Of a stretch of 38,414 nucleotides of DNA, positions 15,294 to 30,774 are shown piece after piece. The stretch comes from Tannerella sp. (lineage in GTDB: Bacteria > Bacteroidota > Bacteroidia > Bacteroidales > Tannerellaceae), in the NCBI GenBank assembly GCA_031276175.1, contig JAISNP010000043.1:1-38414 (forward strand), read 5' to 3'. The translations under genes were made by a program, and so were the position numbers. The notes beneath the pieces were generated by a model. The model saw nothing but the letters and a program-made list of their open reading frames with translations, made no database searches and was not told the origin of the DNA. Each line of letters opens with the position of its first letter. Position 1 is the first letter of the stretch.

Positions 15294-15554
15294 GCTTAAG
15301 TACGAACGATTTTTACTTAAGTAAACGCGGCGCCGACTTAAGTAAAAACGGTTTTTACTTGAGTAAAAATGGCGCCGACTTAAGTAAAAACGGCGCCGAC
15401 TTAAGTAAACGTGATTTTTTACTTGAGTAAACGCGGCGCCGACTTAAGTAAAAATGGCGCCGACTTAAGTAAACGCGGCTCCGACTTAAGTAAAAATGAT
15501 TTTTACTCAAGTAAAAACGGCGCCGACTCAAGTAAAAACGGCGCCGAGTTAACT
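15294..15554. repeat. Intergenic tandem array, strict 21-bp period, ACTTAAGT/GGCGCC units
   Basis: The octamer ACTTAAGT (or ACTTGAGT, ACTCAAGT) occurs 12 times at exactly 21-base steps from 15294 to 15525 (the first copy reads GCTTAAGT), with a shifted degenerate AGTTAACT at 15547. Between them most units carry AAA(C/T)GGCGCCG; a few have a GATTTTT variant instead. Both ACTTAAGT and GGCGCC are palindromes. The array starts 11 bases after the M3 peptidase stop codon and lies ~190 bases upstream of the dCMP deaminase promoter. Short ORFs on both strands (YLSRRRF- and GADLSKN-type heptads) exist only because 21 is a multiple of three. No spacers, so not CRISPR. Confidence 0.9.
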
Positions 15555-15564
15555 CCGGATTCAT

Positions 15565-17613
15565 TTATCTTTTTATTCCGTCCCGTACAAGCAGGGCGCG
15601 GATCGTCGGGTCCTGCCCCCTGAACCTGCGGTAAAGTATGTCGGGGCTTTCGGAGGCGCCTTTTGAGAGGATGTTCAGGCGAAACGATGCGGCGGTTTCG
15701 GCGTCGAAGATTCCCGCCGCCTTGAAGACGGAGAAGGCGTCGGCGTCAAGCACTTCCGCCCATTTGTATCCGTAGTATCCTGCTGCGTATCCGCCGGAGA
15801 AGATGTGTCCGAAATCGGAGCTGAACAGCGTGCCGGGCACGTGTGGAAGTATGGCGGCAGCGGCGGCGGCCTTTTCTTCAAATTCGGAGACGGAGCCGTC
15901 GAACGGCGTCCGGAGCGTGTGCCAGGCCATGTCGAGGAGGGCAAATCCGACCTGTCGGCAACATGCGTATCCGGCGTTGAAGCGTGATGCCCGAATCAGG
16001 TTTTGCACCAGTCGCGGCGGTATTTTTTCGCGCGTAAGGAAGTGCTCGGCAGCCATGTCGAGGAAGGCTTCTTCTTCCAGCCAGTTTTCCATTATCTGGG
16101 AAGGGAGTTCTACGAAATCGCGCACGACGTTTGTGCCGGCGAGGCTTTCGTAGGAGACGTCGGAGAGGATGTCGTGCAGCGCATGTCCGAATTCGTGCAG
16201 AAAGGTGCGCATCTCGTCGAAGGTGAGCAGCGACGGTCGGGTGGCGGTGGGACGTGTAAAGTTCATGACGATGGCTGCGTGCGGGCGATGATCCGCGCCT
16301 CCGTCGTCGCGGCGCTGTGCGCGGAGGCTGCTCATCCATGCGCCCGACTGCTTGCCGGGGCGGGGGAAGAAGTCGATATAGAGGATAGCCAGATGGCGTC
16401 CGTCGGCGTCGAGCGCTTCGTATGTCCGCACTTCGGGATGATATACGGGTATGCAGGTATTTTCTCTGAAAGTGATGCCGTAGAGGCGGTTTGCGAGGCG
16501 GAAGATGCTTTGTGTCGCCTTTTCGAGTTCGAAATACGGACGGGTCATTTCGTCGGAAACGTCGAAGCCGGCGGTTTTCAGTTTTTCGGAGTAGTAGCTC
16601 CAGTCCCACGGCATGAGGTTGATTTCGCGTTTTTCCGTTTCGCGTGCAAAGCGCTGTACGGCGCGGTATTCGTCGACGGCTGCCGGCCGGCAGGCTTCGA
16701 GCAGGCGGTCGAGCAGGCGGTATACCTGTTCGGGGGTTTTGGCCATGCTGTTTTTGAGGACGCAGGCGGCGTAGTTTTCGTATCCGAGGAGTTGTGCGAT
16801 TTCGGTGCGGATGTCGACGATCCGGCGGATGATGTCCTTGTTGTCCGATTCGTTGTTGTTGTTCCCGACGTTCAGGCGCGCCCGGTAAAGCGTTTCGCGC
16901 AACTGCCGGTCGTCGGCATACTGCATGAACGGGCGGTAGAGCGGCTCGGAAAGGGTGAAAATCCATCCCGTTTTGTTTCTGTTTTTTGCTTCTTCGGCGG
17001 CGGCTTCGCAGATGCTTTCGGGGATGCCGGAGAGCGACTTTTTGTCGACGAGGTGCAGTTCGCAGCTGTTTTTGTCTTTCAGCGTGTTGTTGTCGAATGT
17101 GATTGCGAGCCGGCTCAGTTCGGCGCTCAGGCGGCGGAAGCGTTCCTGCGCTTCGGGGGCGAGGTTGGCGCCGTTGTCGGCAAAGGCGTCGCAGGTGTTT
17201 TGCAGCAGGGTGGCATCTTCGGGGGAGAGGTGCAGGGATGCCCGGCTGTTGTAGACGGCTTTTATCCGTGCGAAGAGGCGGGGGTTCAGATAGACGTTGT
17301 TGCGCGATTCGGAAAGGATGTCGGAAACCGGCTGCGCGAGGCGCATCATTTCGTCGTCGGCTCTGACGCCGAGCAGGAAAAAGAATATCGACGATACTTT
17401 TTTCAGCAGTTTGCCGCTGCGTTCGAGGGCGACTATCGTGTTTTCGAAAGCAGGCGGATGCGGATTGTCGGCAATGGCGTTCACCTCGTCTTCCCACCGG
17501 CGTGCGGCTTCGGCGGCGGCGGGGAGGTATTGCGCGTTACTCCACCTGTCGAACGGGATGGTGTCGAACGGCGTGCGGAAGTCTTCCGTCAGGAGTGATG
17601 TCGGGGCGGTCAT
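15565..17613 (-). CDS. M3 family metallopeptidase (peptidyl-dipeptidase Dcp-like)
   Basis: A 682-residue zinc peptidase of the thimet oligopeptidase/Dcp clan. The zinc site is HEFGH at residues 473-477 in FLHEFGHALHDILSDVSYES, with the third ligand expected in the downstream ENWLEEEAFLD helix. The C-terminal part has the GYAAGYYGYKWAEVLDADAF substrate-binding motif, and the N-terminal ~200 residues are the helical cap. No signal peptide is seen, so it should degrade peptides in the cytoplasm. It starts 24 bases after nadD and is the last gene of the yicC-gmk-nadD unit. The 21-bp array begins right behind its stop codon. Confidence 0.94.
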   Translation of the reverse strand: MTAPTSLLTEDFRTPFDTIPFDRWSNAQYLPAAAEAARRWEDEVNAIADNPHPPAFENTIVALERSGKLLKKVSSIFFFLLGVRADDEMMRLAQPVSDILSESRNNVYLNPRLFARIKAVYNSRASLHLSPEDATLLQNTCDAFADNGANLAPEAQERFRRLSAELSRLAITFDNNTLKDKNSCELHLVDKKSLSGIPESICEAAAEEAKNRNKTGWIFTLSEPLYRPFMQYADDRQLRETLYRARLNVGNNNNESDNKDIIRRIVDIRTEIAQLLGYENYAACVLKNSMAKTPEQVYRLLDRLLEACRPAAVDEYRAVQRFARETEKREINLMPWDWSYYSEKLKTAGFDVSDEMTRPYFELEKATQSIFRLANRLYGITFRENTCIPVYHPEVRTYEALDADGRHLAILYIDFFPRPGKQSGAWMSSLRAQRRDDGGADHRPHAAIVMNFTRPTATRPSLLTFDEMRTFLHEFGHALHDILSDVSYESLAGTNVVRDFVELPSQIMENWLEEEAFLDMAAEHFLTREKIPPRLVQNLIRASRFNAGYACCRQVGFALLDMAWHTLRTPFDGSVSEFEEKAAAAAAILPHVPGTLFSSDFGHIFSGGYAAGYYGYKWAEVLDADAFSVFKAAGIFDAETAASFRLNILSKGASESPDILYRRFRGQDPTIRALLVRDGIKR

Positions 17614-17636
17614 ATGTGTATATTATTGCGTATATG

Positions 17637-18230
17637 TCATAATGTATGGTCTGCCGGCGGGGCGGCGAAAAACGATACTGCCTTTTCGCGCACAGGTTCG
17701 GGTAGGAAGAAGCGTATATCGCGTCCCTGCCGGATGGCGTCGCGGATGAAGGAGGATGATATTTCCATTACCGGCGCATCTACCCGCCGCACGCCGGTCG
17801 GGGGCGCAGGCGCGGGGCGGTCGTATCCCGGACGGGGATATATGAGGACGGGAAACTCTTCGAGCAGCGCGTCGGCGTCTTTCCACTGTTCCATGTTTTG
17901 CCAGTTGTCGGCGCCGATGATCAGGTGGAACAGGTGTCCGGGGAATGTATGTTTCAGGGCGCGGAGCGTGCGGAGGGTATAGGACGGGAGGGGAAGGGAG
18001 CGTTCGAAGTCGCTTGCCCTGAATCGCGGATAGCCTGCCGTGGCGGCCTGTACCATTTCGTAGCGGGTGCGGAAGTCGAGCATGTGCTGCTGCGTTTTCA
18101 GCGGATTATGAGGAGTGACGAGGAACCACGTTTCGTCCAGATTCTCGTATTCGCAAATCCAGTTTGCAAGCGCCAGATGCCCGACATGCACCGGATTGAA
18201 TGAACCGGAGAAGATGCCGGTGCGTTTCAC
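17637..18230 (-). CDS. nadD: Nicotinate-nucleotide adenylyltransferase
   Basis: A 197-residue enzyme making nicotinate adenine dinucleotide from NaMN and ATP in NAD synthesis. Nucleotidyltransferase motif GIFSGSFNPVHVGHLALANW at the N-terminus (GSFNPxHxGH), then FLVTPHNPLK, FHLIIGADNWQNMEQWKD and the C-terminal ISSSFIRDAIRQG (ISST/SxxR motif). The start is GTG at 18230, whose bases overlap the gmk stop as GTGA. Although the frame is open far upstream, that sequence is the antisense-frame shadow of gmk (Arg/Ala-rich) and not part of the protein. Confidence 0.95.
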   Translation of the reverse strand: MKRTGIFSGSFNPVHVGHLALANWICEYENLDETWFLVTPHNPLKTQQHMLDFRTRYEMVQAATAGYPRFRASDFERSLPLPSYTLRTLRALKHTFPGHLFHLIIGADNWQNMEQWKDADALLEEFPVLIYPRPGYDRPAPAPPTGVRRVDAPVMEISSSFIRDAIRQGRDIRFFLPEPVREKAVSFFAAPPADHTL

Positions 18231-18805
18231 AGTCCGAGGAATTGCGTGACGAGGCGGCATGTTTCGTCCTGCGCCCGTTGCAGTTCGTCGTTGAGGACGA
18301 CGGCGTCGAAGCGTGTCGCAAAGGAGAGTTCGTACTGCGCCTTGTCCAGCCGCCGGGCGATGACGTCGGGCGCATCCGTGGCACGCGATTCCAGCCGCCG
18401 GCGCAGCTCGTCGACGGAGGGCGGCCTGATGAAGATTGCCAGCGCCTGCGTGCCGTAGCATTTTTTCAGCCGGAGGCCGCCGGTGACGTCGACGTCGAAA
18501 AGTACGTGTTTGCCTGCTGCGGCGATTCGGTCGATTTCGGACTTGAGCGTGCCGTAGAAGACGTTTGCATATACTTCTTCGTATTCGACAAACTCTTCGG
18601 CGGCGATTTTTTCCCTGAACGTTTCGGACGACATGAAGTAGTATTCCGTCCCGTCTTTTTCTCCCGCACGCGGCGCGCGGCTCGTGGCCGAGACGGAGAA
18701 AGCCAGCGGAAGACCGCAGGCCAGCAGGCGGCGGATTATGGTGGTTTTGCCGGAGCCGGAGGGGGCGGAGATTATTATCGACCTGCGGTTCATTGCGCGC
18801 GTCAC
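18227..18805 (-). CDS. gmk: Guanylate kinase
   Basis: Phosphorylates GMP to GDP in the cytoplasm. P-loop SAPSGSGKTTIIRRLL; GMP-binding segment SVSATSRAPRAGEKDGTEYYFMS and FVEYEEVYANVFYGT; HVLFDVDVTGG (Walker B-like). Two starts are possible: GTG at 18805, which overlaps the yicC stop as GTGA, exactly as nadD does with gmk (192 residues), or ATG at 18793 (MNRRSIIISAP), which gives the more typical N-terminus (188 residues). Length and motifs are normal. Second gene of the yicC-gmk-nadD-M3 unit. Confidence 0.95.
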   Translation of the reverse strand: MTRAMNRRSIIISAPSGSGKTTIIRRLLACGLPLAFSVSATSRAPRAGEKDGTEYYFMSSETFREKIAAEEFVEYEEVYANVFYGTLKSEIDRIAAAGKHVLFDVDVTGGLRLKKCYGTQALAIFIRPPSVDELRRRLESRATDAPDVIARRLDKAQYELSFATRFDAVVLNDELQRAQDETCRLVTQFLGL

Positions 18806-19674
18806 AGTGCGTTAAGTACCTGTTCCCTGACCTGCTCCAGTTCGTCTTTCATCGCGACTACGAGTTGTTGCATCGCGGCGTGGTTGCTTTTTGAGCCGAG
18901 GGTATTGATTTCGCGCCCGATTTCCTGCACGATGAAGCCTAATTTCTTGCCCTGCCCGTGCGGTGCGCGGAGCGTGTCGGCGAAGTATTTGAGGTGATTG
19001 TCGAGGCGTTTTTTTTCTTCCGTCACGTCCAGTTTCTCGATGTAGTAGAGCATCTCCTGTTCAAAGCGGTTTCTGTCGTAATCCGTTTCGCCGAGCCGGT
19101 TCAGTCCTTCGGCGATACGGTTTTTTATTTTCTCGATACGTTCTTCTTCGTATGCCTCGGTTTGCCGGAGCAGTTGGGCGATGCGGTCTGCTTTTTCTTC
19201 AAAGAAGCGTTGCAGCATTGCGCCTTCCTGTATCCTGAAGTCGATCAGCAGGCGTACGGCTTCGCGAAAGGCGCCGTGTACGGCCGTCCACTCGTCGTCG
19301 CCGGGCGATGCGGCATCGCTTTTCACCATGTCGGGAAGGCGCAGCAGCACGGCAAACCAGTCGGTCGGCTCCGCAATGTGCATCTGCGCGGCTATTGCCC
19401 TGCCCTGTTCGAGATAGCTTGCGAACAGCGGGCGGTTGATTTGCGTCGACGTGTCGCTGCCGATGTTTTCGATGCCGACGACAAGGTCTATTTTGCCGCG
19501 CTCAAGGGATTGCATCACTTCGTTGCGCAACTGCATCTCCTTTTCGCGATATGCGGAGGGGATGCGCACGTTTAAATCCAGCTGTTTGCTGTTTAGTGAT
19601 TTGATTTCTACCGTCACTTTCTTGTCGGGCAGTTCGGCTACGGCCTTTCCGAAGCCGGTCATTGATTGTATCAT
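18802..19674 (-). CDS. YicC family endoribonuclease
   Basis: A 290-residue YicC protein (YicC_N plus DUF1732). The N-terminus MIQSMTGFGKAVAELPDKKV is the family hallmark, so ATG at 19674 was chosen over an upstream in-frame start; SLNSKQLDLNVRIP follows. The C-terminal half is a charged coiled helix (EEKADRIAQLLRQTEAYEEERIEKI) ending in DNHLKYFADTL...GKKLGFIVQEIGREINTLGSKSNHAAMQQLVVAMKDELEQVREQVLNAL. In E. coli YicC acts in RNA turnover; the same role here is by family. It is usually next to gmk, as here. Confidence 0.94.
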   Translation of the reverse strand: MIQSMTGFGKAVAELPDKKVTVEIKSLNSKQLDLNVRIPSAYREKEMQLRNEVMQSLERGKIDLVVGIENIGSDTSTQINRPLFASYLEQGRAIAAQMHIAEPTDWFAVLLRLPDMVKSDAASPGDDEWTAVHGAFREAVRLLIDFRIQEGAMLQRFFEEKADRIAQLLRQTEAYEEERIEKIKNRIAEGLNRLGETDYDRNRFEQEMLYYIEKLDVTEEKKRLDNHLKYFADTLRAPHGQGKKLGFIVQEIGREINTLGSKSNHAAMQQLVVAMKDELEQVREQVLNAL

Positions 19675-19730
19675 ACAGGGATATAATTTTCGCAAGGGTT
19701 CATTTTACGCGATATTTCTTTTTAATCGAA

Positions 19731-19797
19731 ACACGGGGACGCCAAGTACGCAAAAGGTGAACGGGGTCATCTTTTGTATTCCGGGCGCCTCCGTGTC
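19731..19797. other. Two-tier hairpin between korB and yicC
   Basis: An outer stem (ACACGGGGACGC against GCGCCTCCGTGT, one mismatch and one wobble) encloses an inner stem CAAAAG..TGA / TCA..CTTTTG. It lies 23 bases past the korB stop and ~55 bases before yicC. There is no strong T-run, so it may be a weak terminator of korAB or a structured leader; the sequence alone does not decide. Confidence 0.5.
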
Positions 19798-19819
19798 CGA
19801 TTTCAGTATGCCGAAGCGG

Positions 19820-20833
19820 TTATTTCACTTCCCACGTTTCGCCGCTCATCAGCAGGTCGTGCAGCTTGCGGACGGGTTTTGCGGCCTGCACGGCGGCGAT
19901 TTGCTGCGCGACGGATTCGTCGTAGGTCGGCGCTTCCACGTCGCGGATTACGCCTGTGGCTACGGGCAGATCGTCTTTCATGAGGGCGAGCATGTTGTGC
20001 AGCGTGACGTCTTTTTCATGCGCGTCGTGCACAAGGATGTCTTCTTCCCCGTAACCGTCCTGCCCGATGGTGACGGCTTTGATTTTAAGCCCGTCCAGCA
20101 CAAGGCCTTTTTCGAGGTTTTGGCCGAACCGCATTTTTTCGCCGTGCTTGAGGAATATCGTTTTTTCGGCGCGGAACGTTTTTTCGGATATTTGCTTGTG
20201 GATGCCGTCGTTGAAAATGACGCAGTTGACAAGCACTTCTATCACCGACGTGCCGCGGTGGCGCGCTGCGGCGACCATCACTTTGGTCATGGCGGGCAGG
20301 TCTACGTCTATTGCACGCGCAAAAAACCGTCCCCGTGCGCCCAGCGTCAGTTCGGCAGGGATGAAGGGGTCTTCTACCGTGCCGAAAGGCGAGCTTTTGG
20401 AGACGAATCCGCGCTCGGATGTAGGCGAATACTGCCCTTTGGTCAGTCCGTAGATTTTGTTGTTCATCAATATGACATTGATGTCCACATTGCGTCGCAC
20501 GGCGTGTATGAAATGATTTCCGCCGATGGCAAGGCAGTCGCCGTCGCCCGTAATCAGCCATACGTTCAGGTCGGGGCGCGCCGTTTTGACTCCGGTGGCG
20601 ATGGCCGCGCCGCGCCCGTGAATGGTATGGAATCCGTAGGCATTGACGTAGTAAGGCAGGCGCGAAGAGCATCCGATGCCCGAAATGACGGCCATCCGGT
20701 GCGGCGGGATGTTGAGTTCCGCCAGCGCTTTTTGCAGGCTGTTGAGGGTTGCATAGTCGCCGCAACCGGGACACCAGCGTACATACTGGTCGCTTTTATA
20801 GTCCTGAGGGGTGTATTTTATTTCCGTATTCAT
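19820..20833 (-). CDS. korB: 2-oxoglutarate:ferredoxin oxidoreductase, beta subunit
   Basis: A 337-residue thiamine-diphosphate subunit. It begins MNTEIKYTPQDYKSDQYVRW, then CPGCGDYATL (Cys pair), GIGCSSRLPYYVNAYGFHTIHGRG, and the ThDP/Mg motif GDGDCLAIGGNHFIHAVRRN...NNKIYGLTKGQYSPTS. With KorA it oxidises 2-oxoglutarate to succinyl-CoA and reduces ferredoxin, and it may run in reverse in anaerobes. ATG at 20833 overlaps the korA stop by 4 bases; the longer open frame upstream is a korA shadow. A related branched-chain 2-oxoacid specificity cannot be excluded from sequence alone. Confidence 0.94.
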   Translation of the reverse strand: MNTEIKYTPQDYKSDQYVRWCPGCGDYATLNSLQKALAELNIPPHRMAVISGIGCSSRLPYYVNAYGFHTIHGRGAAIATGVKTARPDLNVWLITGDGDCLAIGGNHFIHAVRRNVDINVILMNNKIYGLTKGQYSPTSERGFVSKSSPFGTVEDPFIPAELTLGARGRFFARAIDVDLPAMTKVMVAAARHRGTSVIEVLVNCVIFNDGIHKQISEKTFRAEKTIFLKHGEKMRFGQNLEKGLVLDGLKIKAVTIGQDGYGEEDILVHDAHEKDVTLHNMLALMKDDLPVATGVIRDVEAPTYDESVAQQIAAVQAAKPVRKLHDLLMSGETWEVK

Positions 20834-22689
20834 TTTCTGTCCTCCATTATTTTGGTAAATTCTTCCACTAAGCGTGTGACGGTAAACGGTTGGCCTTTGA
20901 TGCGGCAAAACTTGCAGGGGTTGAAATCGTCGATCTTGCTCCGCAGGTAATTGGCGAACTGCCCGTTGTTTTGTTCGGCGACGATTACTTTTTTGTATTT
21001 CCGAAGCACTTCCGCCGTATTCTTCGGCAACGGATTGATGAAGCGGAAGCTTGCCAGCGCCACTTTCTTTCCGTTGCGCTGCATGATTTCCATCGTTTCG
21101 TAGAGATGTCCGCGGGTGCCCCCCCACCCTACTATCAGCAGGTCGGCATCCGGGTCGCCCGCCACGTCGAGCGCGGGGATGCAATCGGCCACTTTGTCTA
21201 CTTTGGCTTGCCGCGTGGCCACCATTTTCTGGTGGTTGGCCGGTTCGGTGGAGATGGAGCTTGTGGCGTAGTCTTTTTCCAGTCCGCCGATGCGGTGTGC
21301 AAAGCCTTCCGTGCCGGGGATTGCCCAGTAGCGCACGAGCGTTTCGTCGTCGCGGCAGTATGCTTTCCACGGCGATTCGCCTTTGTAGTTGGAGACGTAG
21401 TTCGGCTTGATGTCGGGATACTCGTCCGGGTGAGGAATGCGCCATGCCGAGACGCCGTTGGCGAGGAAGGCGTCGGTCAGGAGGATGACGGGCGTCATGT
21501 GTTCGACCGCAATTTTGCCTGCCCAGTATGCCATGTCGAAGCAGTCGGTCGGCGTAGTAGCCGCCAGCACGATGGCCGGGCTTTCGCCGTTGCGGCCGTA
21601 AAGCGCCTGCATCAGGTCGGTTTGTTCGCTCTTCGTAGGCATTCCCGTGGAAGGCCCGCCGCGCTGCACGTCGATCACCACCAGGGGCAGTTCGGCAATG
21701 ACGGCCAGCCCGATGGCTTCGCTTTTCAGCGCCAGCCCCGGTCCCGATGTGGATGTGGCGGCAAGGCATCCGGCAAAGCTTGCGCCGATGGCCGTGCATA
21801 TCCCCGCGATTTCGTCTTCGGCCTGTATGGTGATTACGCCCAGGTCTTTGCGTTTGGCCAGGTCTTGCAGTATGTCGGTGGCGGGCGTGATGGGATAGCT
21901 GCCGAGGAACAGCTTCAGGCCGGCCTTTTCGGCTGCGGCGATCAGGCCGTAGGTGGTTGCCGTATTGCCGCTGACGTCGGTATAATGTCCGGGGGGGATT
22001 TTTGTCGGTTCGATGCGGTAGGTCGGGACGGATGCCTGAATGTTGTGCCCGTAATTATATCCGTCGGTAAGCGCCTTGATGTTTGCCTGTACGATCAGCG
22101 GTTTTTTTGCAAATTTGTTTTGCAGCATGTGCATTGCGCTGTCGAGCGGGCGGTCGAAGAGCCAGCACACCAGTCCGAGCGTAAACATGTTTTTGCATCG
22201 CAGCGCCGATTTGGCGTCCAGCCCGAACTCGGCCAGTCCGTCGCGCACCATTGTCGAGATGGGCGCGGCTACGACATGTACCGTTGTCAGTCCCAGTTCG
22301 CCGAAGGGATCGTCGGTAGTAAATTCCGCCTTTTCGAGATCTTTTTTCAGGAAAGAATCGGTGTCTATAATTACTATGGAGTCGGGATAAAGCCGTTTCG
22401 CGTTGACCTTCAGTGCGGCGGGATTCATGGCGACCAGCACGTTTGCTCTGTCGCCCGGCGTATGAATCTTTTTCGATCCGAAGTGTACCTGATAGCCTGA
22501 TATGCCGCTCAACGAGCCTTGGGGGGCGCGCACCTCCGCCGGATAGTCGGGGAAGGTGGAAATATCGTTTCCTAAAATTGCCGAGAGGTTGGAGAAGATC
22601 GTTCCGGTCAGCTGCATCCCGTCGCCGCTGTCGCCGGAGAATCGTATCACGACATGCTCCAGTGTGGTTACTTTTGTCTGTGTTGTCAT
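20830..22689 (-). CDS. korA: 2-oxoglutarate:ferredoxin oxidoreductase, alpha subunit (gamma-alpha fusion)
   Basis: A 619-residue subunit. Residues ~10-190 are the gamma domain (VVIRFSGDSGDGMQLTGTIF, PDYPAEVRAPQGSLSG, VLVAMNPAALKVN), fused to the alpha/pyrimidine domain (LFLGSYPITPATDILQDLA, TIQAEDEIAGICTAIGASFAG, TSTSGPGLALKSEAIGLAV, VVDVQRGGPSTGMPTKSEQTDL) and the C-terminal domain (LLIVGWGGTRGHLYE, VIVAEQNNGQFANYL). Cytoplasmic, part of an oxidative or reductive TCA branch. Upstream gene of the pair with korB; the promoter -7 element is at 22717. Confidence 0.95.
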   Translation of the reverse strand: MTTQTKVTTLEHVVIRFSGDSGDGMQLTGTIFSNLSAILGNDISTFPDYPAEVRAPQGSLSGISGYQVHFGSKKIHTPGDRANVLVAMNPAALKVNAKRLYPDSIVIIDTDSFLKKDLEKAEFTTDDPFGELGLTTVHVVAAPISTMVRDGLAEFGLDAKSALRCKNMFTLGLVCWLFDRPLDSAMHMLQNKFAKKPLIVQANIKALTDGYNYGHNIQASVPTYRIEPTKIPPGHYTDVSGNTATTYGLIAAAEKAGLKLFLGSYPITPATDILQDLAKRKDLGVITIQAEDEIAGICTAIGASFAGCLAATSTSGPGLALKSEAIGLAVIAELPLVVIDVQRGGPSTGMPTKSEQTDLMQALYGRNGESPAIVLAATTPTDCFDMAYWAGKIAVEHMTPVILLTDAFLANGVSAWRIPHPDEYPDIKPNYVSNYKGESPWKAYCRDDETLVRYWAIPGTEGFAHRIGGLEKDYATSSISTEPANHQKMVATRQAKVDKVADCIPALDVAGDPDADLLIVGWGGTRGHLYETMEIMQRNGKKVALASFRFINPLPKNTAEVLRKYKKVIVAEQNNGQFANYLRSKIDDFNPCKFCRIKGQPFTVTRLVEEFTKIMEDRK

Positions 22690-22716
22690 TGTGCTCTATT
22701 TTGTTGAAAAATCGGG

Positions 22717-22724
22717 CAAATATA
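22717..22724 (-). promoter_or_regulatory. -7 element for korAB
   Basis: Minus-strand TATATTTG matches TAnnTTTG, 27 bases before the korA ATG. Confidence 0.5.
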
Positions 22725-22853: not shown

Positions 22854-23531
22854 CTATTCCACTACCGTTTTCTCTATATTCGGCGCCCAAGGCCCCTTCA
22901 CGCCCCGGTTGTTTTCCCACCGCGTGGCGACGCAAAGAATCTTGGCGTGCGCCGAAGCGGGCAGTTTGAAGCGGAAAGGCGTCCGGGTAGAAAAGTCAGA
23001 GTACGGCAATTCGTCGGCATTCGTCGGCAACGTTTCTTCCGCATTGTAAAGCCCCCATTTCAGCTCGGCGCCGTGTATGTCGGCAGGCTTTGCCGTCGAA
23101 TGATCCTCGTTTTTATCCTGAAAATGTGCATCTATCCATCCTGCGCCTACTATTACGAAGCGCTTGATTACCGGATAAGTATCCGGATCCGATGCGGAAG
23201 ACTGTCCCGACTTCGGCACGGTCAGCCCCAGCGCGATGCGGTCGGCGTCGGTCAGGAGCGGGTTATGAATCAGATACGCCTGATTGAACGTGCGCAAATC
23301 CGCAATATAAGCATCCTTGGCTTCATCCTTGCGTTCGCGGTTCATCGGCGTATGGGTTTCGGGATTGTGGTACTGGTTGTAATAACTGTTGAAGATACCA
23401 AACTTCGACTGCAGCGCAGTCACATTTGCAGCATCCACAGCCCATGCCGCTGCGTGCGGCGTCAGGTATCCGAAGTATTCGTTACTCCATCCTATTAAAT
23501 CAGAATCACTGTGAGGAACATAATCTTTCAT
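22854..23531 (-). CDS. Conserved protein of unknown function, 225 aa
   Basis: No enzyme motif is recognised. The N-terminal two-thirds is helical and aromatic-rich (MKDYVPHSDSDLIGWSNEYF, NSYYNQYHNP, LRTFNQAYLIHNPLLTDADR), and the last ~80 residues look like a small beta-sandwich (VIVGAGWIDAHF, ELKWGLYNAEE, TPFRFKLPASAHAKILCVATRWENNRGVKGPWAP). I have the impression of a family found as single small genes in Bacteroidetes, but this could not be searched. No signal peptide. The same C-terminal motif is found in the small ORF at 7078-7464. It is a single gene with a good terminator; the 21-bp array lies in front of it, possibly inside its 5' leader, as the only near-consensus -7 element (GATATTTG, about 23936-23943) is on the far side of the array. 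Confidence 0.8.
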   Translation of the reverse strand: MKDYVPHSDSDLIGWSNEYFGYLTPHAAAWAVDAANVTALQSKFGIFNSYYNQYHNPETHTPMNRERKDEAKDAYIADLRTFNQAYLIHNPLLTDADRIALGLTVPKSGQSSASDPDTYPVIKRFVIVGAGWIDAHFQDKNEDHSTAKPADIHGAELKWGLYNAEETLPTNADELPYSDFSTRTPFRFKLPASAHAKILCVATRWENNRGVKGPWAPNIEKTVVE

Positions 23532-23622
23532 TTTGCTTTGTTTTAAGTGAGTATTTCTTTTAATTCAATCTGTTATTGAGTTCTTTTCCATCTTTCCGGG
23601 CGGGTTGGCGCTTAATGTCACG

Positions 23623-23860
23623 GAAGGCTCCGGAACTTCCGTAGAAGGCTCCGGAACTTCCGTAGAAGGCTCCGGAACTTCCGTAGAAGGCTCCGGAATT
23701 TCCGTAGAAGGCTCCGGAACTTCCGTAGAAGGCTCCGGAACTTCCGTAGAAGGCTCCGGAACTTCCGTAGAAGGCTCCGGAACTTCCATAGAAGGCTCCG
23801 GAACTTCCATAGAAGGCTCCGGAACTTCCATAGAAGGCTCCGGAACTTCCGTAGAAGGCT
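23623..23860. repeat. Intergenic tandem array, strict 21-bp period, TCCGGA/GGAACTTCC units
   Basis: Eleven full units plus a 7-base partial, each made of GAAGG, CTCCGGAACTTCC, then GTA or ATA. Variation is tiny: one unit has GGAATTTCC, and three adjacent units have CATA instead of CGTA, as expected for recent slippage or recombination. Each unit holds the palindromes TCCGGA and GGAACTTCC. ORFs run through both strands (heptads VEGSGTS and GAFYGSS) because 21 is a multiple of three; nothing else supports coding. The array occupies most of the 437-base gap between the 225-aa protein and the DJ-1 gene. Confidence 0.92.
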
Positions 23861-23968
23861 AAATTTTTAAAGTTTGCCGAAATCATTTTCATACAGTGTA
23901 CTTTTTGAATAAAGTTTTGCAAATATCGGACATCTATTTATTTCTGCAATACTAAAAATGTTTAATTA

Positions 23969-24592
23969 TCAGTAATTCGATGCGGGGGTTCGGAAATATC
24001 CGGTCCAACTTCTGTTTCCGTCGTATTCCATATATTCCAGTGTACGATTAAGCACGTAATCGCCATAAATTATTCTTACAATCTCGAACGATAAATCTAT
24101 TCCTGCCGAAATACCTCCGGAAGTGAATACATTATCGAAATGTGTAAACCTTTTTTCTTTTTGCGGAATAGATGAGGGTACATTTGCAATTATTTCTTCA
24201 TAGACCTCCTGATGGGTGCAAAACGCTTTGCCGTCCAACATTCCCAGGCTTGCCGGTATTCTGACTCCGGAACAGATGCTTAATAAATATTCGCAGTGTT
24301 GATAGCGGTCTTTCACCCAGTTTAAATAAGTGTCGTTTTTACTGACTGCGCGACTGCCGCGGCCTCCCGGTAAAATCAGGATGTCTATTTTCGGTGCGTT
24401 CTTAAAATGGCAGTTCGGCAATATGTGCATTCCGTTGAGCGCTTTAACGGGGGCGCCTGTTTCCGATACTAAAAAGGTATTGAACAGGGAATGATCGTGT
24501 AATGCCGATGATACGGCGAATACTTCAAAGGGGCCTGCAAAATCCAAAACTTCCGCATCATCGAAGATTAATATTCCAACGTTTCTTTTCAT
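23969..24592 (-). CDS. DJ-1/PfpI family protein
   Basis: A 207-residue class I glutamine-amidotransferase-like protein. It starts MKRNVGILIFDDAEVLDFAGPFEVF (the conserved Glu/Asp near the N-terminus), then IDILILPGGRGSRAV, and the nucleophile elbow LLSICSGVRIPASLGMLDGKAFCTH with Cys107. FTSGGISAGIDLSFEIV follows. It is closest in pattern to the isonitrile hydratase/AraC-N-terminal branch rather than to chaperone DJ-1; substrate unknown. Cytoplasmic, single gene. The 21-bp array lies about 110 bases downstream of its stop codon. Confidence 0.9.
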   Translation of the reverse strand: MKRNVGILIFDDAEVLDFAGPFEVFAVSSALHDHSLFNTFLVSETGAPVKALNGMHILPNCHFKNAPKIDILILPGGRGSRAVSKNDTYLNWVKDRYQHCEYLLSICSGVRIPASLGMLDGKAFCTHQEVYEEIIANVPSSIPQKEKRFTHFDNVFTSGGISAGIDLSFEIVRIIYGDYVLNRTLEYMEYDGNRSWTGYFRTPASNY

Positions 24593-24645
24593 TGTGCTGA
24601 TTTTTTAATTGTTGATATGTATATAAGATGTAATCTTGCCGGGCG

Positions 24646-25593
24646 TCAGTTGCCGCCCGGATTGTTGTTATCCTGCAGTGCGAGGATTTCGTCTATCGTC
24701 AGGCCGGTCAGTTCGCGGATGTCTTCGGGGGACATGCCTTTTTTCAGGCAGGAGGCGGCGATTGTTTTCCGGCTTTTTTCCATTCCTTTTTCTATTCCTT
24801 CTTTTCGGCCTTCTTCAATTCCCATTTCCATTCCCATTTCCATTCCCATCTCCATTCCCTTTTTCATTCCTTTCTGTTCCGCGTCCGACAGTACGCTTAT
24901 TTCGGTGAGGATGCCGTCGCGGAGGCGGTCGTAGGCGAGCAGCTGCGCTTTGGTGTAGGTGCCTACTTCTACGTATTTTACCGCTTCGCTGATTTCGCGG
25001 TTTTCCATGAGGTCGGGGGAGATGTGGCTCGTGGCTTCGTTGATTTCGGTCAGGTAACGGAGCCACAAATCCTTCAGTTTCTTTTCCGCACGGTTGCGGG
25101 CGGCAAATTTTTTCAGTTCGATGAAGATAAATTCGAGGCCTTTGATTTGCTTCCGCGTGTCTTTTATGTTCACGATCTTATAATGATGATAATATTCGTC
25201 GCGCATTTCGGGGGACTTCTCGAAAATGTCGTTTACGAAGCTCAGGGCGTATACGGGCTGGAGGTACTCGTACTTTTCAGCCCTGTCGAGTTGCATTACG
25301 TATGCCTTGGAGGCATTGAGCAGCACGCGGCTTTTGAAACTTTCCGACCAGTACATTTGCATCTCCACGATGAACTGCCGTCCCTGCACGTCGGTGCAGC
25401 GCACGTCGACAATCGAGTGGCGAAGGGCGTCTATTTCGGGGAGGAGTTCTCCGGTCTGATATTCCAGATCTGCAATTTGCTGCGATTCGTCCAGCGGGAG
25501 CATACTGTTGAGCAGACTTTTGCAGAGGTGTTTGTGTTCGCCGAAGACGCGCTTGAACGTCAAATCGTTTTTAGGGTCAAGATAATATGCCAT
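24646..25593 (-). CDS. Rpn family recombination-promoting nuclease/putative transposase
   Basis: A 315-residue intact Rpn protein. N-terminal MAYYLDPKNDLTFKRVFGEH is the family signature; the PD-(D/E)XK core is DALRHSIVDVRCTDVQGRQFIVEMQMYW (Asp of VDVRC, Glu and Gln of EMQ). The C-terminal part carries Gly-Met-Glu repeats (KGMKKGMEMGMEMGMEMGIEEG) encoded by a 12-bp direct repeat at about 24826-24860, then a conserved SCLKKGMSPEDIRELTGLTIDEI helix pair. Rpn proteins are Ca/Mg-dependent endonucleases that raise RecA-independent recombination; tail repeats vary in number between copies. Paralogue of the pseudogene at 7628-8290. Own promoter at 25623. Confidence 0.92.
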   Translation of the reverse strand: MAYYLDPKNDLTFKRVFGEHKHLCKSLLNSMLPLDESQQIADLEYQTGELLPEIDALRHSIVDVRCTDVQGRQFIVEMQMYWSESFKSRVLLNASKAYVMQLDRAEKYEYLQPVYALSFVNDIFEKSPEMRDEYYHHYKIVNIKDTRKQIKGLEFIFIELKKFAARNRAEKKLKDLWLRYLTEINEATSHISPDLMENREISEAVKYVEVGTYTKAQLLAYDRLRDGILTEISVLSDAEQKGMKKGMEMGMEMGMEMGIEEGRKEGIEKGMEKSRKTIAASCLKKGMSPEDIRELTGLTIDEILALQDNNNPGGN

Positions 25594-25622
25594 GGCTAAG
25601 TATGATTTTTATGTTTGCAGGG

Positions 25623-25630
25623 CAAAGTTA
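25623..25630 (-). promoter_or_regulatory. -7 element for the intact Rpn gene
   Basis: Minus-strand TAACTTTG, full TAnnTTTG match, 30 bases before the ATG. The surrounding AAATCGCTAAC(T/A)TTG is conserved in front of the Rpn pseudogene, where the element is mutated to TAACATTG. Confidence 0.6.
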
Positions 25631-25705
25631 GCGATTTTTTCAACAACATAATGGTTTTCGCCGGAACGGGACGCGGAAGTCGCTGCGCTCCCCTACCCTC
25701 CTTGT

Positions 25706-25761
25706 TGCCAAAATGACAGTTGCTCCGTCAAATTTTCTCCCGTCCTTGCAAAATAATGTCA
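25706..25761 (+). promoter_or_regulatory. Possible activator sites upstream of groESL
   Basis: Two related blocks, TTGCCAAAATGACAGT (25705-25720) and TTGCAAAATAATGTCAGT (25746-25763), precede the sigma-54-like promoter by about 65 and 20 bases. The first has the form TGNCA-N3-TGNCA, a dyad. They could bind an enhancer-type activator. This is inference from repetition and position. Confidence 0.35.
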
Positions 25762-25783
25762 GTCCTGCTTCCGCATCGTTTTT

Positions 25784-25798
25784 TGGCACGGATTTCGC
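25784..25798 (+). promoter_or_regulatory. Sigma-54-type (-24/-12) promoter of groES-groEL
   Basis: TGGCACGGATTTCGC: the invariant GG and GC are separated by exactly ten bases and the left half is the full TGGCAC consensus. No TAnnTTTG element was found between here and groES. The predicted leader is about 70 bases. Confidence 0.6.
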
Positions 25799-25880
25799 TG
25801 TATACGGTATGTGATTTTAAAAATCAAAAACATCATATCAAATTAAATTATTAATAACCACATTTTAAATTGACAAGAAA

Positions 25881-26150
25881 ATGAAGATTAAACCATTAGC
25901 AGACCGAGTGCTGGTAAAACCGGCCGCTGCGGAAGAGAAAACATCGGGCGGAATCATTATTCCGGATTCGGCAAAAGAGAAACCGCTGAAAGGCGAAGTA
26001 GTTGCCGCAGGCAACGGAACAAAAGACGAAGCAATGGTCGTCAAAAGCGGCGACAGCGTGCTTTACGGCAAATATGCCGGTACCGAAATCGAGTGGGACG
26101 GAGAAACGTATCTGATCATGCGTCAATCCGACATTTTAGCAATTATCTAA
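25881..26150 (+). CDS. groES: Co-chaperonin GroES
   Basis: An 89-residue Gro[37 protein letters not shown] includes the mobile loop (TSGGIIIP) that binds GroEL, followed by GEVVAAGNG and [32 protein letters not shown]. Seven copies cap the GroEL cage in the cytoplasm. It lies 37 bases before groEL in the standard operon. Confidence 0.98.
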
Positions 26151-26172
26151 TTTATCATTCCAAACAAACTAA

Positions 26173-27825
<1,653 letters not shown>

Positions 27826-27848
27826 TCTTTTTGCTCATAATGATGAAA

Positions 27849-27881
27849 GGAGCGACCCCGGGCGGGTTGCTCCTTTTTTTT
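27849..27881 (+). terminator. Terminator of groESL
   Basis: Stem GGAGCGACCC / GGGTTGCTCC (one G-T pair) and a run of nine T. The T-run ends at the stop codon of the convergent beta-helix gene. Confidence 0.92.
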
Positions 27882-30291
27882 ACATTTTCTTCCCGACGTT
27901 TGCACGTATGACGCCGCCCGGCACCGTGACCGTATTTTCCCGCTGGTTCCTGAAGACCGTCATCTGTTGCGGCTTCGACAAGTCCGCCCCGGCAACGGCG
28001 CGGCGCAGGTCGTCGATGCTGTTCACCGGCATCCCGGCAAAGCCTACGATGACGTCGTTCGACCTCAGAAAGTCGCGCAATTCGCTGCCCCACGCGCTTA
28101 CGGCTACGACATACACGCCTCGCTCCGAATCCATGCCGGTGGCAGACCGTTCTCCGAGCGTGTTCAGGTTCTTGACCTGCACGGATTCCCATATAAATGT
28201 TTCCGCATCCGTCCCCCCGTCCGCCGCAAAAACAGGCGCCGGCATCCGGGGCTGCCCGGCAAGCGCCTTCAGGCGGGGCGACTCGACGCCGAAACGATCC
28301 ATTGCGAAATTCTGGAAGCCCGTGCGGAAAACCTCCTCCAATGTGTCCGCCACGCGGAAATCTCCCGAAGCGGGATCCGTAAACGCCACCCTGCAAACCA
28401 CGGAGCTTGCGTCGGAGCCGAAGCTGCGCGCCGTCCGGTACGAAAGGCTGTCGGTAAAAACATTGCCGTCAATCAGCGCGCCGCTCATGTCGCAACCCGC
28501 CGTCTGCTCGTATGGCGCCATCACGATGTTGCGGATAAACACGACGCCGCTTTGCTTAAACCACACATGCCGGTGCCACGTGCCGTTCACCAGGATATTG
28601 TTTTCCACCACGCGGTAGAATCCCTCCCTGAGTTTCAATCCCCCGTTCAGGCAAAGGTTGTTGCTGATAATGTAGTTGCTTGAGCCGTCGTCAAGGTCAA
28701 TATCCCACCCCCGGTCGCAGCGAAAGCGGTTGTTGCGGATCACCGTCGTCTCCGTCGCGTCGGCAAGCACCAGACCGGCATATCCGCCCGTCGCGAGGAG
28801 CGAATCCATCACTTCGCGTTGCGGATGCCAGAAGCGATCCCTGCCCCAGGAGTTGAACGAGCCGTGGTCGCCTGTTTCCTTCACGGTGTCGAACACGTCG
28901 TTGAACTCAATGACGTGCCCGCCCCATGTGCCTTCGCTGACGTTGATGCCGGCGCGCGGCGTGTCGTAGATGCTGTTGCGGCTGACTGTGACGGCGCGAC
29001 ACATGGAGAGTTCCACCCCGGCAATCTGCTTTTCGTACAGCCCTATCTTGTGAATCAAATTGTCGTGCACCCGGCAATCGGCCGGATAGTTGCCGCCCTT
29101 CGGCCCCTTCGCCCGGTCCATTTCTTCCGGGGGGACGAACTCGGCGTATTCAAAACTCGGCGAGCGTACCGCGCCGGGATCTCCCACAAAGCACACGGCG
29201 CCGGCGCCGATGCGCGTAAAGTGCGATCCGCTGACTTCGCAGCGGCGGTTGTAGTTGCTGAAGAATACGGCATTGCCGCCAAGGTTATACAGGTTGCAAT
29301 TTTTCAGCGCGCAGCGTTCCGCCCCTTCGAAAAACACGGCTGCCCCGCGATAAATCGTCCAGTCGGAACGCAGCAGCGGCTCATACGCCTCCATAAAGGT
29401 GCGCACGGTCTGCGTCAAATCCACTCCCTCCACCGTGATGCGGCGCACGGGTTCCGCCTCGCTCCCGCGTATCTCGATCAAACTTTTGAGCTGCGGGCTT
29501 TCAAACAAAGCCTCCGTCACGTCCTCTCCCGGCAGGGGATAGTAGTAAAGCATGGATTCTGCGGCGCTGTAAAACCATTCTCCCGGCGCGTCGAGTTCCT
29601 CAAAAATATTCTCCACCATCCGGTTGGCCGCGTGCAACCCGGAGCGGCGGTTGTTTTGCCATCCGCCTTCCGTTTCGAGCCTCCCCCGGCGGTCTTTCCC
29701 CGTAATCCGGTAATGAAAATCCCCCCAGTCGCTGCCGTGCATGGCGTGGAGGTAGCCGCCGGCAGGATTTTTCCACCGCTTCACGCGCCGGGGAGACGTA
29801 GCATCGGCCGCCGTCCCGTTGAAACGTATGGCCGTCGAATCGAAATCGGGATAACGCGCCTGCGGGCGGATTTCGCCGTTCACAATCAGCATATCCATCT
29901 GCGGATTCCCGGATACTTCGGTCTTCAGGATGCCGCCACGGTAAGGCGTCCAGCGCAGTCCGTCCAGCGCCACGCTGCCCTTGATGACCGCCTTTTCGTC
30001 TCCGTATGCGCGAACGGTCAGCGACTTGCCGGCGCCGCCGTCCTGCGGAGTCAAAACGAGCGTCTCCCGAAGCCGGTAAACGCCTCCGCGCAAAAACACC
30101 GTCACGTCGCCCTCGACAGGCCGGGCTGCCTCCAGCGCCTGCGCTATCGTGCGGAAAGGAAACTGCGCGCTGCCGTTGCCGGCGTCGTTGCCGTGCGGCG
30201 ACACGTAATACTGCGTCTGAGCCTGCGAAATGCAGATTGAAAGCGCCGACAGCAGCAGCGTCGGCAGGATGTAAATCTTATTCATGTGCAT
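27880..30291 (-). CDS. Secreted right-handed beta-helix protein with C-terminal PDZ domain (glycosidase-like)
   Basis: An 803-residue protein with a signal peptide (KIYILPTLLLSALSICISQAQ); ATG at 30285 (MNKIYIL) is an equally good start. YYVSPHGNDAGNGSAQFPFRTIAQALEAA and VFLRGGVYRLRETLVL are the typical opening of polysaccharide-active beta-helix proteins. Residues ~280-620 carry the helix rungs (CALKNCNLYNLGGNAVFFSN, VTVSRNSIYDTPRAGINVSEG, TTVIRNNRFRCDRG, YIISNNLCLNGG, VVENNILVNG). Residues ~710-800 form a PDZ domain (YVVAVSAWGSELRDFLRSNDVIVGFAGMPVNSIDDLRRAV). The fold and position beside the xyl operon suggest a periplasmic or surface glycosidase of the GH120 (xylosidase) or GH141 type, but catalytic residues cannot be fixed by eye. 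Convergent with groEL, divergent from xylB. Confidence 0.82.
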   Translation of the reverse strand: MHMNKIYILPTLLLSALSICISQAQTQYYVSPHGNDAGNGSAQFPFRTIAQALEAARPVEGDVTVFLRGGVYRLRETLVLTPQDGGAGKSLTVRAYGDEKAVIKGSVALDGLRWTPYRGGILKTEVSGNPQMDMLIVNGEIRPQARYPDFDSTAIRFNGTAADATSPRRVKRWKNPAGGYLHAMHGSDWGDFHYRITGKDRRGRLETEGGWQNNRRSGLHAANRMVENIFEELDAPGEWFYSAAESMLYYYPLPGEDVTEALFESPQLKSLIEIRGSEAEPVRRITVEGVDLTQTVRTFMEAYEPLLRSDWTIYRGAAVFFEGAERCALKNCNLYNLGGNAVFFSNYNRRCEVSGSHFTRIGAGAVCFVGDPGAVRSPSFEYAEFVPPEEMDRAKGPKGGNYPADCRVHDNLIHKIGLYEKQIAGVELSMCRAVTVSRNSIYDTPRAGINVSEGTWGGHVIEFNDVFDTVKETGDHGSFNSWGRDRFWHPQREVMDSLLATGGYAGLVLADATETTVIRNNRFRCDRGWDIDLDDGSSNYIISNNLCLNGGLKLREGFYRVVENNILVNGTWHRHVWFKQSGVVFIRNIVMAPYEQTAGCDMSGALIDGNVFTDSLSYRTARSFGSDASSVVCRVAFTDPASGDFRVADTLEEVFRTGFQNFAMDRFGVESPRLKALAGQPRMPAPVFAADGGTDAETFIWESVQVKNLNTLGERSATGMDSERGVYVVAVSAWGSELRDFLRSNDVIVGFAGMPVNSIDDLRRAVAGADLSKPQQMTVFRNQRENTVTVPGGVIRANVGKKM

Positions 30292-30354
30292 AATTTATCA
30301 AGAAGTTAATATTGAGTTTGATTTATTGTCGTTCGATTCCACTTGTTTTCGTGC

Positions 30355-30362
30355 AAAATTAC
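30355..30362 (-). promoter_or_regulatory. -7 element for the beta-helix gene
   Basis: Minus-strand TAATTTTG matches TAnnTTTG, 63 bases before the ATG. Confidence 0.5.
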
Positions 30363-30438
30363 TGGAAATGCCGGGATTTTAAAACGAGTGAAATAAAAAA
30401 CTTTCTCCGCGCTCCACGCTTCGGACAGGCAGAAGCGG

Positions 30439-30774
30439 GTTTATTTTCGGTTTTAAGTCGCATACCAGCGGCAGAAGCGTGAATTCGTCTGCTTTTATGC
30501 TTCTGCCGCAGGTATGAAGCATAAATCCGTCTGCTTTTACGGTTCTGCCGCAGGTACGAAGCATGAATTCGTCTGATTTTGCGGTTCTGCCGCAGGTACG
30601 AAGCATGAATCCGTCTGCTTTTGCGGTTCTGCCGCAGGTATGAAGCATATTTACACTTTTTTTTATGGTTGTGTCTATCGGCAGAAGCGTGTTAATTTTC
30701 GTTTTTTAGCTTCTGTCTATGGACAGAAGCATGAATCCGTCTGCTTTTGCGGTTCTGTCCATGGACAGAAGCAT
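30439..30774. repeat. Intergenic tandem array, strict 42-bp (2 x 21) period
   Basis: Eight 42-base units in perfect register, each ending GAAGC(A/G)T. Four central units (30481-30648) are nearly identical (cores GTCTGCTTTT, TTCTGCCGCAGGTA(C/T)GAAGC); the flanking ones are diverged but keep length. Several contain a dyad, best seen as TTCTGTCCATGGACAGAA near 30754-30771 and CTTCTGTCTATGGACAGAAG near 30710-30729. It lies between the divergent promoters of the beta-helix gene and xylB. Open frames on both strands (14-residue MLRTCGRTAKADGF repeats) reflect 42 being a multiple of three. No spacers, so not CRISPR. 30775-30960 otherwise shows nothing recognisable. Confidence 0.9.

Follow-up and report, generated by a model that had tools for sequence, protein, structure and literature searches.

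Intergenic tandem arrays of a draft Bacteroidales genome were found to share, in most cases, a step of 21 or 42 bp, and no known element type that was examined accounts for this step. Three such arrays (A, B and C) lie in the window, the whole 38,414-nucleotide stretch of DNA that was analysed, and many more were counted in a sample of the same genome. The arrays are tentatively interpreted as dispersed intergenic minisatellites, neutral or selfish, that comprise many unrelated families and whose two-turn register is set at the DNA level, 21 bp being two turns of the double helix; our confidence in this interpretation falls a little short of even. Bacterial repeat arrays are usually explained singly, whereas here a single unit length is shared by mostly unrelated sequences, dozens of them in one genome, and appears again in related species, so that the origin of the repeat period becomes directly testable.

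Arrays of the window and their sites

The three arrays were located where the initial annotation had placed them (array B there ending at 23860), and their units were mutually unrelated, as it had claimed, each array representing its own dispersed family (Table 1). Autocorrelation of arrays A and B gave peaks at 21 bp and its multiples, while array C gave peaks at 42 and 84 bp and none at 21 bp. The further claim that no array slips by a single base held for B and C when a phase tracker was used, although TRF split array C into two rows, one with 5% indels. It failed for array A, where the register shifts by one base at approximately 15410-15420 (GATTTTTT, one extra T). Some units of array A carry GGTTTTT or GATTTTT in place of GGCGCCG.

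Table 1. Arrays, repeat elements and adjoining genes in the window.
Feature	Position	Strand	Description
Deaminase gene	14601..15095	-	six relatives without array A keep the gene order M3-deaminase-S41
Dispersed ~80-bp element, one copy	15137..15215	+	occurs near several arrays
11-bp direct repeat, left copy	15153..15163	+	CCGGATTCATT; brackets most of the DNA missing from relatives
Array A	15294..15554		21-bp units (ACTTAAGTAAAAACGGCGCCG), ~12 units, one 1-bp slip
11-bp direct repeat, right copy	15555..15565	+	CCGGATTCATT; at the end of array A
Peptidase M3 gene	15565..17613	-	end adjoins array A
Gene beside array B	22854..23531	-	without Pfam match
Array B	23623..23866		21-bp units (GAAGGCTCCGGAACTTCCGTA), 11.3+ units, 98% matches
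DJ-1/PfpI family gene	23969..24592	-	flanks array B on the opposite side
Beta-helix protein gene	27880..30291	-	sub-threshold PDZ match; diverges from array C
C element, left end	30412..30455	+	CGGACAGGCAGAAGCGGGTTTATTTTCGG; found again at several loci
Array C	~30430..30790		42-bp units, ~8, reverse-complement symmetry, dyads 21 bp apart
C element, right part	30700..30815	+	contains CTGTCCATGGACAGAAGCATTTTTTC; found again at several loci
FGGY carbohydrate kinase gene	31135..32628	+	other flank of array C

Relatives of array A were found on three other contigs (C143, C118 and C52), and at the syntenic site the array was absent in all six relatives compared. The distance from the M3 stop codon to residue 14 of the deaminase was 508 bp here compared to 68-129 bp in these relatives, and the surplus of about 380-440 bp lies mostly between the two copies of the 11-bp direct repeat. 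Six of the eight profile matches to the ~80-bp element in the sample fell within 500 bp of an array, but at three loci only; 19% of random intergenic points would be expected within that distance. In one relative (G020) a 23/46-bp array lies about 200 bp past the end of the peptidase M3 gene, and in another (G015) a 21-bp array lies on the other side of the gene. A 23-bp array upstream of SurE is present also in one (G007) of ten other same-genus genomes with the gene, and its unit differs. For arrays L106 and L114, flanks of 1.5 kb did not contain the adjoining gene.

The families of arrays B and C have relatives in other species. Array B was related to arrays on four other contigs of its own genome and matched G015, G016 and G023; viral contigs scanned with an 18-base piece of its unit gave one contig only, with a single unrepeated match. 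Matches to array C (E<=0.001) were obtained on 17 other contigs of its own genome, several of them short, and on 17 contigs of G004. At many loci, and in G004 as well, the C element shows recurring ends around internal 42-bp units whose number varies, and its half-units are reverse-complement-like (symmetry z of 5.3). Among arrays beyond the three of the window, relatives were detected in the sample for some only.

Period, register and divergence of the arrays

The sample consisted of 512 kb of the same draft genome, picked by contig number with the window excluded; the host is a gut bacterium related to Tannerella. It contained 48 arrays that reached the census threshold of 80 bp, with mostly unrelated units, and the fragmentation of the draft qualifies all array copy numbers. 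The best-folding period was 21 bp in 26 arrays, one of which (L104:12713-12804) may be a 7-bp repeat, and 42 bp in eight, excluding L114:84-497, which was called as a ninth 42-bp array and is really an 84-bp repeat. The period test proposed by the initial annotation, run on this sample, revealed a strong excess at 21 and 42 bp (34 of 48 arrays), which chance does not explain; the outcome that would have refuted its proposal, a lack of excess at 21 bp, was thus not observed in the sample. The minority periods among good arrays of this genome were 20 bp (one array), 23 bp (three) and 41 bp (two), none of which is predicted by a strict two-turn rule; the 23-bp arrays may form a separate hairpin class. 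When non-coding repeats with at least three copies were considered, 32 of 38 had a period of 21 or 42 bp in this genome (with the three of the window counted), compared to 8 of 17 in the same genus and 0 of 1 in four outgroup genomes. Among non-coding repeats with 2-3 copies and a period of 18-30 bp, 10 of 21 had a period of 21 bp; five of the ten belong to larger arrays or lie nearby, and without them the count is 5 of 16.

Arrays of 21 or 42 bp were present in the samples of seven of 24 same-genus genomes and at four named MAG loci. No array of at least 80 bp was found in any of the four outgroups, in the isolate loci (604 kb), or in the six of 80 loci placed in neither comparison group (L014, L023, L043, L045, L047 and L064). 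The array density of this genome was not matched in its close relative G024, where 84 kb were sampled and contained none.

The arrays are mostly non-coding and their placement is roughly proportional to intergenic length. Tandem, divergent and convergent regions held 18, 11 and 7 of 36 arrays, compared to 52, 29 and 20% of intergenic base pairs (totals that include the arrays themselves), and no clear promoter or terminator bias was observed among these locations. The codon-model gene caller missed the DJ-1 gene, so these location counts are approximate.

About 10% of unit bases differ from the consensus, yet the register stays mostly exact: 43 arrays contained 6 register slips and 979 substitutions. 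These figures omit L114:84-497, the 84-bp repeat, which had 9 of the 15 slips when included. With the same scoring there were 52 mismatches per gap within arrays, compared to 12.5 in flanking non-array repeats. Array copies across loci do have gaps (17.8 mismatches per gap), and cheaper gap scoring gave 15.5 for these copies against 11.3 in the flanks. The lengths of two pairs of related sites, the only pairs examined in this way, differed by whole units, L081 and L088 by 273 bp (13 x 21) and L119 and L139 by 168 bp (8 x 21). Unit divergence was 0.157 and 0.129 at the array edges and 0.087 at the centre (n=37 arrays of at least 5 units, p=2.2e-4). In five of nine 42-bp arrays direct 21-bp similarity was retained, with a lag-21 identity of 0.61-0.64.

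Explanations of the shared step

The head-to-tail tandem units at several loci, found for the three arrays of the window, the change of copy number by whole units in two pairs and the homogenised centres with diverged edges (n=37) are all consistent with minisatellites. Units would be gained, lost and homogenised through slippage or through strand switching between palindromic units. The step would be held to two helical turns (21 bp) because copying or exchange would work only with donor and acceptor in the same rotational phase, and 42 and 63 bp would be its multiples. No sequence-specific protein would be needed, so that many of the sequences entering the process could become arrays of 21 or 42 bp. 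One-unit alleles may be products of contraction and not seeds, so that a first 21-bp duplication is hypothetical. One suggestion of the initial annotation was a genome-wide mechanism by which local seeds give rise to repeats of one fixed period; the period excess in the sample and the whole-unit changes support the first part, while the local seeds are only partly right because array families also disperse.

It is conceivable, though rather doubtful, that an unknown process in this Bacteroidales group copies arbitrary intergenic sequence into arrays on a 21-bp ruler and that the resulting arrays move to other loci and other species. We know of no other bacterial case of a period-specific, sequence-independent array-making activity. 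No description of such shared-period arrays was found in the literature by a narrow search, made mostly with strict exact-term combinations and largely outside subscription journals. Neither a DNA-level ruler nor a broad-specificity protein reading DNA every two turns is known to have a precedent in the architecture of bacterial genomes.

Phased protein binding had also been proposed by the initial annotation, and part of the evidence agrees with it. Selection would then maintain a spacing at which one dyad every two turns, always on the same helix face, is bound by a protein with a nucleoid or regulatory role (or by a set of paralogues), as the register kept in diverging units suggests. The palindromes described there were confirmed, and in a comparison of 43 arrays the units had a longest perfect stem of 5.3 bp on average, compared to 3.7 bp after shuffling. 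Dyad symmetry had a mean z of 2.75 and was significant (p<0.05) in 24 of 37 arrays, comprising 9/9 of the 42-bp and 15/28 of the 21-bp arrays. Complementary double changes numbered 40 at dyads against 17 at other centres, mostly from few arrays. Protein binding therefore retains some probability from the dyad enrichment and the paired changes; the enrichment also fits a binding protein and to that extent counts against the minisatellite reading. Overall, we nevertheless regard it as unlikely: variable dyad pairs show only a slight excess of complementarity (114 pairs, 0.018 per pair, against 0.002 at other centres), most of it in a few arrays, and no 5-, 6- or 7-mer exceeded the maximum of 300 shuffles in 37 families. 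GAAAA, AAAAA, CGGAA and AACTT each occurred at 4-5 times their own expectation but below the shuffled maximum. There is no clear location bias, array A was not retained at its site and the arrays show no excess curvature.

Selection for curvature was rejected, the arrays giving 55.8 degrees per 84 bp and shuffled units 55.5 (p=0.75, 37 arrays; wedge model). The arrays were slightly less curved than tandemised intergenic p-mers (65.7) and no richer in A-tracts than intergenic DNA. An RNA function was rejected as well; the folding z of 146-nt pieces of the three arrays followed no strand rule (plus/minus: A -6.9/-6.0; B -1.2/-4.3; C -2.4/-1.1) and no Rfam match above gathering was obtained at arrays. 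Rfam gave two tRNAs only over the window, and over 15080-15600 it gave 16 sub-threshold matches, none at gathering score.

Rpn (PF12784), described as forming anti-phage toxin-antitoxin systems (PMC10327210), was considered as a factor acting in trans. Array density was correlated with its number per Mb (Spearman 0.50 for 25 genomes, p 0.011; 0.39 for the 21 genomes of the genus, p 0.08). Seven Rpn-less genomes yielded no array in 632 kb, and the other genomes with Rpn yielded 19 in 752 kb. Rpn is not a dependable lead, because four of the seven Rpn-less genomes are outgroups and Rpn-less G016 has two B-like matches.

A second improbable alternative is that the arrays are REP/BIME-like elements, dispersed palindromes moved by a transposase and amplified internally. 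Array C, with its inverted half-units, recurring ends and variable internal units, is BIME-like, and the bracketed surplus at site A points in the same direction. GGAG, a variant REP tag, was present in 12 of 43 units (6.4 expected), and the own genome (G000) gave one partial Y1 transposase match of 29 bits against a Pfam cut-off of 23. However, no Y1 transposase (PF01797) match was obtained in array-bearing G004, G013 and G015 (drafts, 93-99% complete), and two further tags, counted like GGAG as present anywhere in the unit, were not enriched (GTAG 4/43 units, 7.7 expected; CGTC 8/43, 7.5 expected). Such elements alone would not fix one period over unrelated families.

Less probable again is ordinary slippage with survivorship, in which only arrays changing by whole helical turns spare promoter geometry and persist. 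The integer multiples of 10.5 bp below 90 are 21, 42, 63 and 84, and the main periods seen are 21 and 42. Under survivorship the period should be relaxed in regions free of promoters, yet 6/7 arrays in regions called convergent are 21 bp (crude gene calls; some neighbours are distant), and repeats of 2-3 copies already prefer 21 bp.

Translated heptad-repeat proteins, named by the initial annotation as one finding that would refute its proposal, can be set aside as highly improbable for the arrays tested: although 21 is divisible by three, array B has five of six frames open and 3 of 44 arrays lie inside genes called by the codon model, stops in all six frames refute the reading for A and C, 6 of the 44 lack any open frame, 21/42-bp arrays have 2.7 open frames compared to 2.3 in column-permuted controls, and periods of 20, 23 and 41 bp exist.

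Relation to known repeat systems

Plasmid iterons are direct repeats about two helical turns apart whose sequence differs between systems. The arrays resemble them in the two-turn spacing of direct repeats and in the differing sequence from array to array, but here many arrays occur in one genome, and the Pfam-matched genes beside the three arrays of the window are not replication genes.

REP and BIME elements are dispersed, extragenic and palindromic, and BIMEs hold REPs in alternating orientation (PMC3733652, PMC2817692). The arrays appear likewise dispersed, extragenic and palindromic, and the inverted half-units of the C type may correspond to alternating REPs. They differ in the lack of GTAG/CGTC enrichment and of a Y1 match in three array-bearing genomes, in having many unrelated families per genome, and in the fixed 21-bp step.

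With bacterial intergenic minisatellites or VNTRs the arrays share tandem units, variable copy number, a homogenised middle and diverged edges. The unit lengths of bacterial minisatellites are varied, whereas here dozens of mostly unrelated arrays have one unit length.

Period of the tandem arrays

The window arrays A, B and C were examined using Tandem Repeats Finder and row-by-row reading, which confirmed the places and periods proposed in the initial annotation. The accompanying claim that no single-base slip occurs failed for array A, which contains one extra T at about 15410–15420 and is one base out of phase from that point. The window corresponds to contig 15 in a 2.79 Mb draft genome made up of 145 contigs. 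Its carbohydrate kinase is 83–87% identical to kinases of four Tannerella sp. MAGs, in a comparison from which own-genome records are possibly absent, and the genome was therefore taken as Tannerella-like Bacteroidales; from the style of isolate names we take these MAGs to be of termite-gut origin.

The initial annotation had proposed testing for a genome-wide excess of this period, and an excess is present in a 512,168-base sample of the draft (contigs C1–C41 minus C15, at most 20 kb per contig). Arrays 80 bp or longer numbered 48 in this sample (9.4 per 100 kb), and folding at each period between 15 and 49 put 34 of them at 21 or 42 bp. With the window's three arrays included, the best periods were 21 (28 arrays, one of which, L104:12713, may be a 7-bp repeat), 42 (10, including an 84-bp repeat at L114 excluded from later counts), 23 (3), 41 (2) and 31 (2), with one each at 20, 27, 33, 44, 45 and 48. 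Because the draft is fragmented, and four of the arrays sit at the end of a locus, some copy numbers may be in error. A second count used a lower score limit and repeats of at least three copies outside long ORFs; periods of 21 or 42 bp made up 32/38 in the own genome (window included), 8/17 in same-genus samples and 0/1 in four outgroup genomes. Own repeats classed inside ORFs gave 5/13.

A second array class has a period of 23 bp and several of its members resemble short hairpins; one lies upstream of SurE in two species, with differing units. Repeats of about 83–84 bp seem separate from the 21-bp set. The window also carries a 56-nt repeat and a PDDEXK_2 (Rpn-type) gene with inverted related stretches, and this family has nine matches in the own genome.

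Coordinates of arrays, repeats and related features
Feature	Locus	Positions	Remark
Array A	window	15294-15554	21 bp
Array B	window	23623-23860	21 bp
Array C	window	about 30430-30790	42 bp
23-bp arrays	L095	12867-13121, 18575-18722	
23-bp array	L109	9635-9848	
23-bp array	L306	1237-1374	
23-bp array	L324	7341-7459	
~80-bp element	window	15137-15215	
~80-bp element	L112	4144-4222, 3549-3600, 13865-13924	
~80-bp element	L081	11432-11511, 12203-12245	
PDDEXK_2 gene, inverted related stretches	window	24646-25593, 7578-8290	
~83-84-bp repeat	L114	84-497	CCGTCCGAACGAGATTCCGTCTC..
~83-84-bp repeat	L094	14331-14496	
56-nt repeat, partly matching inverted copy	window	90-145, 7221-7246, 7279-7334	AATATACGGATTGAATCCGCAGG.., 89% identity

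Distribution and the site of array A

Small samples of 8 to 104 kb were taken from each of 24 same-genus genomes. Period-21/42 arrays were present in seven (G004, G008, G011, G012, G013, G014, G015), G007 and G020 gave 23-bp arrays only, G023 gave periods of 22/44 and 43, and G018 gave one array under the cut-off (42/85). No array above cut-off was found in the samples of G001, G002, G003, G005, G006, G009, G010, G016, G017, G019, G021, G022 or the close relative G024 (84 kb); the whole G016 genome contains two B-like matches, so that a blank sample is no proof of absence. Period-21/42 arrays also occur in named MAG loci of Tannerella sp. (L003), Alistipes sp. (L016) and Dysgonamonadaceae (L078, L080). 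Among 28 loci (274 kb) grouped as gut MAGs by accession there were 11 arrays, five at 21 or 42, while 46 isolate loci (604 kb) gave one array of another period and four outgroup genomes (362 kb) gave six, none at 21 or 42. The outgroup-set genome G039 has one non-coding 21-bp repeat of 2.7 copies. Narrow queries of the open-access literature returned no account of such arrays.

Array C has matches (E ≤ 0.001, several short) on 17 other own contigs, array A on three and array B on four. The C element consists of recurring left and right ends flanking a variable number of 42-bp units. C-type matches occur on 17 contigs of G004, where three copies read kept the 42-bp register. None turned up in the remaining 39 relatives, several of which were scored for part of the candidates only. 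The B family has matches in G015, G016 and G023. Some sampled own arrays form small families; about half are without a relative in the sample.

At the site of array A the order peptidase M3, deaminase, S41 peptidase is common to the own genome, G024, G015, G022, G009, G016 and G012. The M3 stop and residue 14 of the deaminase are 508 bp apart in the own genome and 80, 81, 78, 129, 68 and 88 bp apart in these relatives respectively, extrapolated where the alignment begins at a different deaminase residue. Besides array A, the extra DNA includes most of a dispersed element, and almost the whole of this stretch is bracketed by two copies of CCGGATTCATT. This direct repeat may represent a target-site duplication, as movement of the arrays by a transposase, one of two main rival explanations, would have it; the dispersed element reaches beyond the left CCGGATTCATT copy, which counts against simple insertion. 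The dispersed element, about 80 bp (ATGAATATCGTATTCATT..GAAGGGCTATATTTTCATAACC), has eight matches in the own sample, six of them less than 500 bp from an array at three loci only, and none in samples of nine relatives.

Changes within and between arrays

Across 43 arrays and 404 units there were 979 substitutions and six register slips. Under one scoring scheme there were 52 mismatches per gap within arrays, compared with 17.8 for array copies at other loci and 12.5 for flanking non-array repeats; cheaper gaps gave 15.5 and 11.3 for the latter two. Single-unit related sites exist in the own genome for two array sites, and the lengths between common anchors differ by 273 = 13 x 21 bases (L081, 14 units, and L088) and 168 = 8 x 21 bases (L119, nine units, and L139), possibly through growth or contraction. 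The pairs L099/L102 and L093/L103 have flanks in common and altered unit sequences, with 21 bp retained. In arrays A, L093 and L119 some half-units are swapped for a different block of equal length (GGTTTTT in place of GGCGCCG in A), suggestive of strand-switch events. Terminal units diverge from the consensus by 0.157 and 0.129 compared to 0.087 for internal units (n = 37 arrays, p = 2.2e-4), a pattern that homogenisation by unequal exchange or slippage would give.

Self-complementarity exceeded that of permuted units (p < 0.05) in 24/37 arrays (mean z 2.75), comprising 9/9 42-bp and 15/28 21-bp arrays. The halves of the 42-bp units are directly similar in five of nine arrays (lag-21 identity 0.61–0.64), with values of 0.05–0.33 in the other four, including C. 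Complementary double changes numbered 40 at dyad centres, compared to a mean of 17 at other centres; the excess complementarity per variable dyad pair is small (0.018, 114 pairs), with much of it coming from a small number of arrays, above all one of 23-bp period. Arrays that bind protein are the other main rival, and for a single protein with a single motif no k-mer exceeded the shuffled maximum.

Origin of the fixed period

The arrays are probably not coding, promoter or terminator elements, targets of one protein with one motif, curved DNA or REP elements. Translation into repeat proteins, which the initial annotation held would count against its reading, does not apply to A and C, which lack any open frame; open frames averaged 2.7 per array compared to 2.3 in column-permuted controls, and with home-made gene calls, used also for the location counts, 3/44 arrays lay inside genes called by model. 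Array location showed no clear bias towards promoters or terminators, curvature computed from wedge values showed no excess, and REP tags were not enriched, GGAG excepted (12 compared to 6.4). Profiles for the REP-mobilising Y1 transposase found none in three array-bearing genomes.

We tentatively favour neutral or selfish dispersed minisatellites whose two-turn register would be imposed at the DNA level, a reading we place a little short of even and which does not account for the 23-, 20- and 41-bp arrays. Selection on promoters is a less favoured source of the preference. Repeats of only two to three copies already prefer 21 bp (10/21, or 5/16 once those in or near larger arrays are removed), as do arrays in regions called convergent (6/7, home-made gene calls), which favours a rule acting at unit making or exchange. 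Periods of 21, 42, 63 and 84 are integer multiples of 10.5 bp, so the same set is expected under a helical-phase rule as under a 21-bp ruler, and the data fit both equally.
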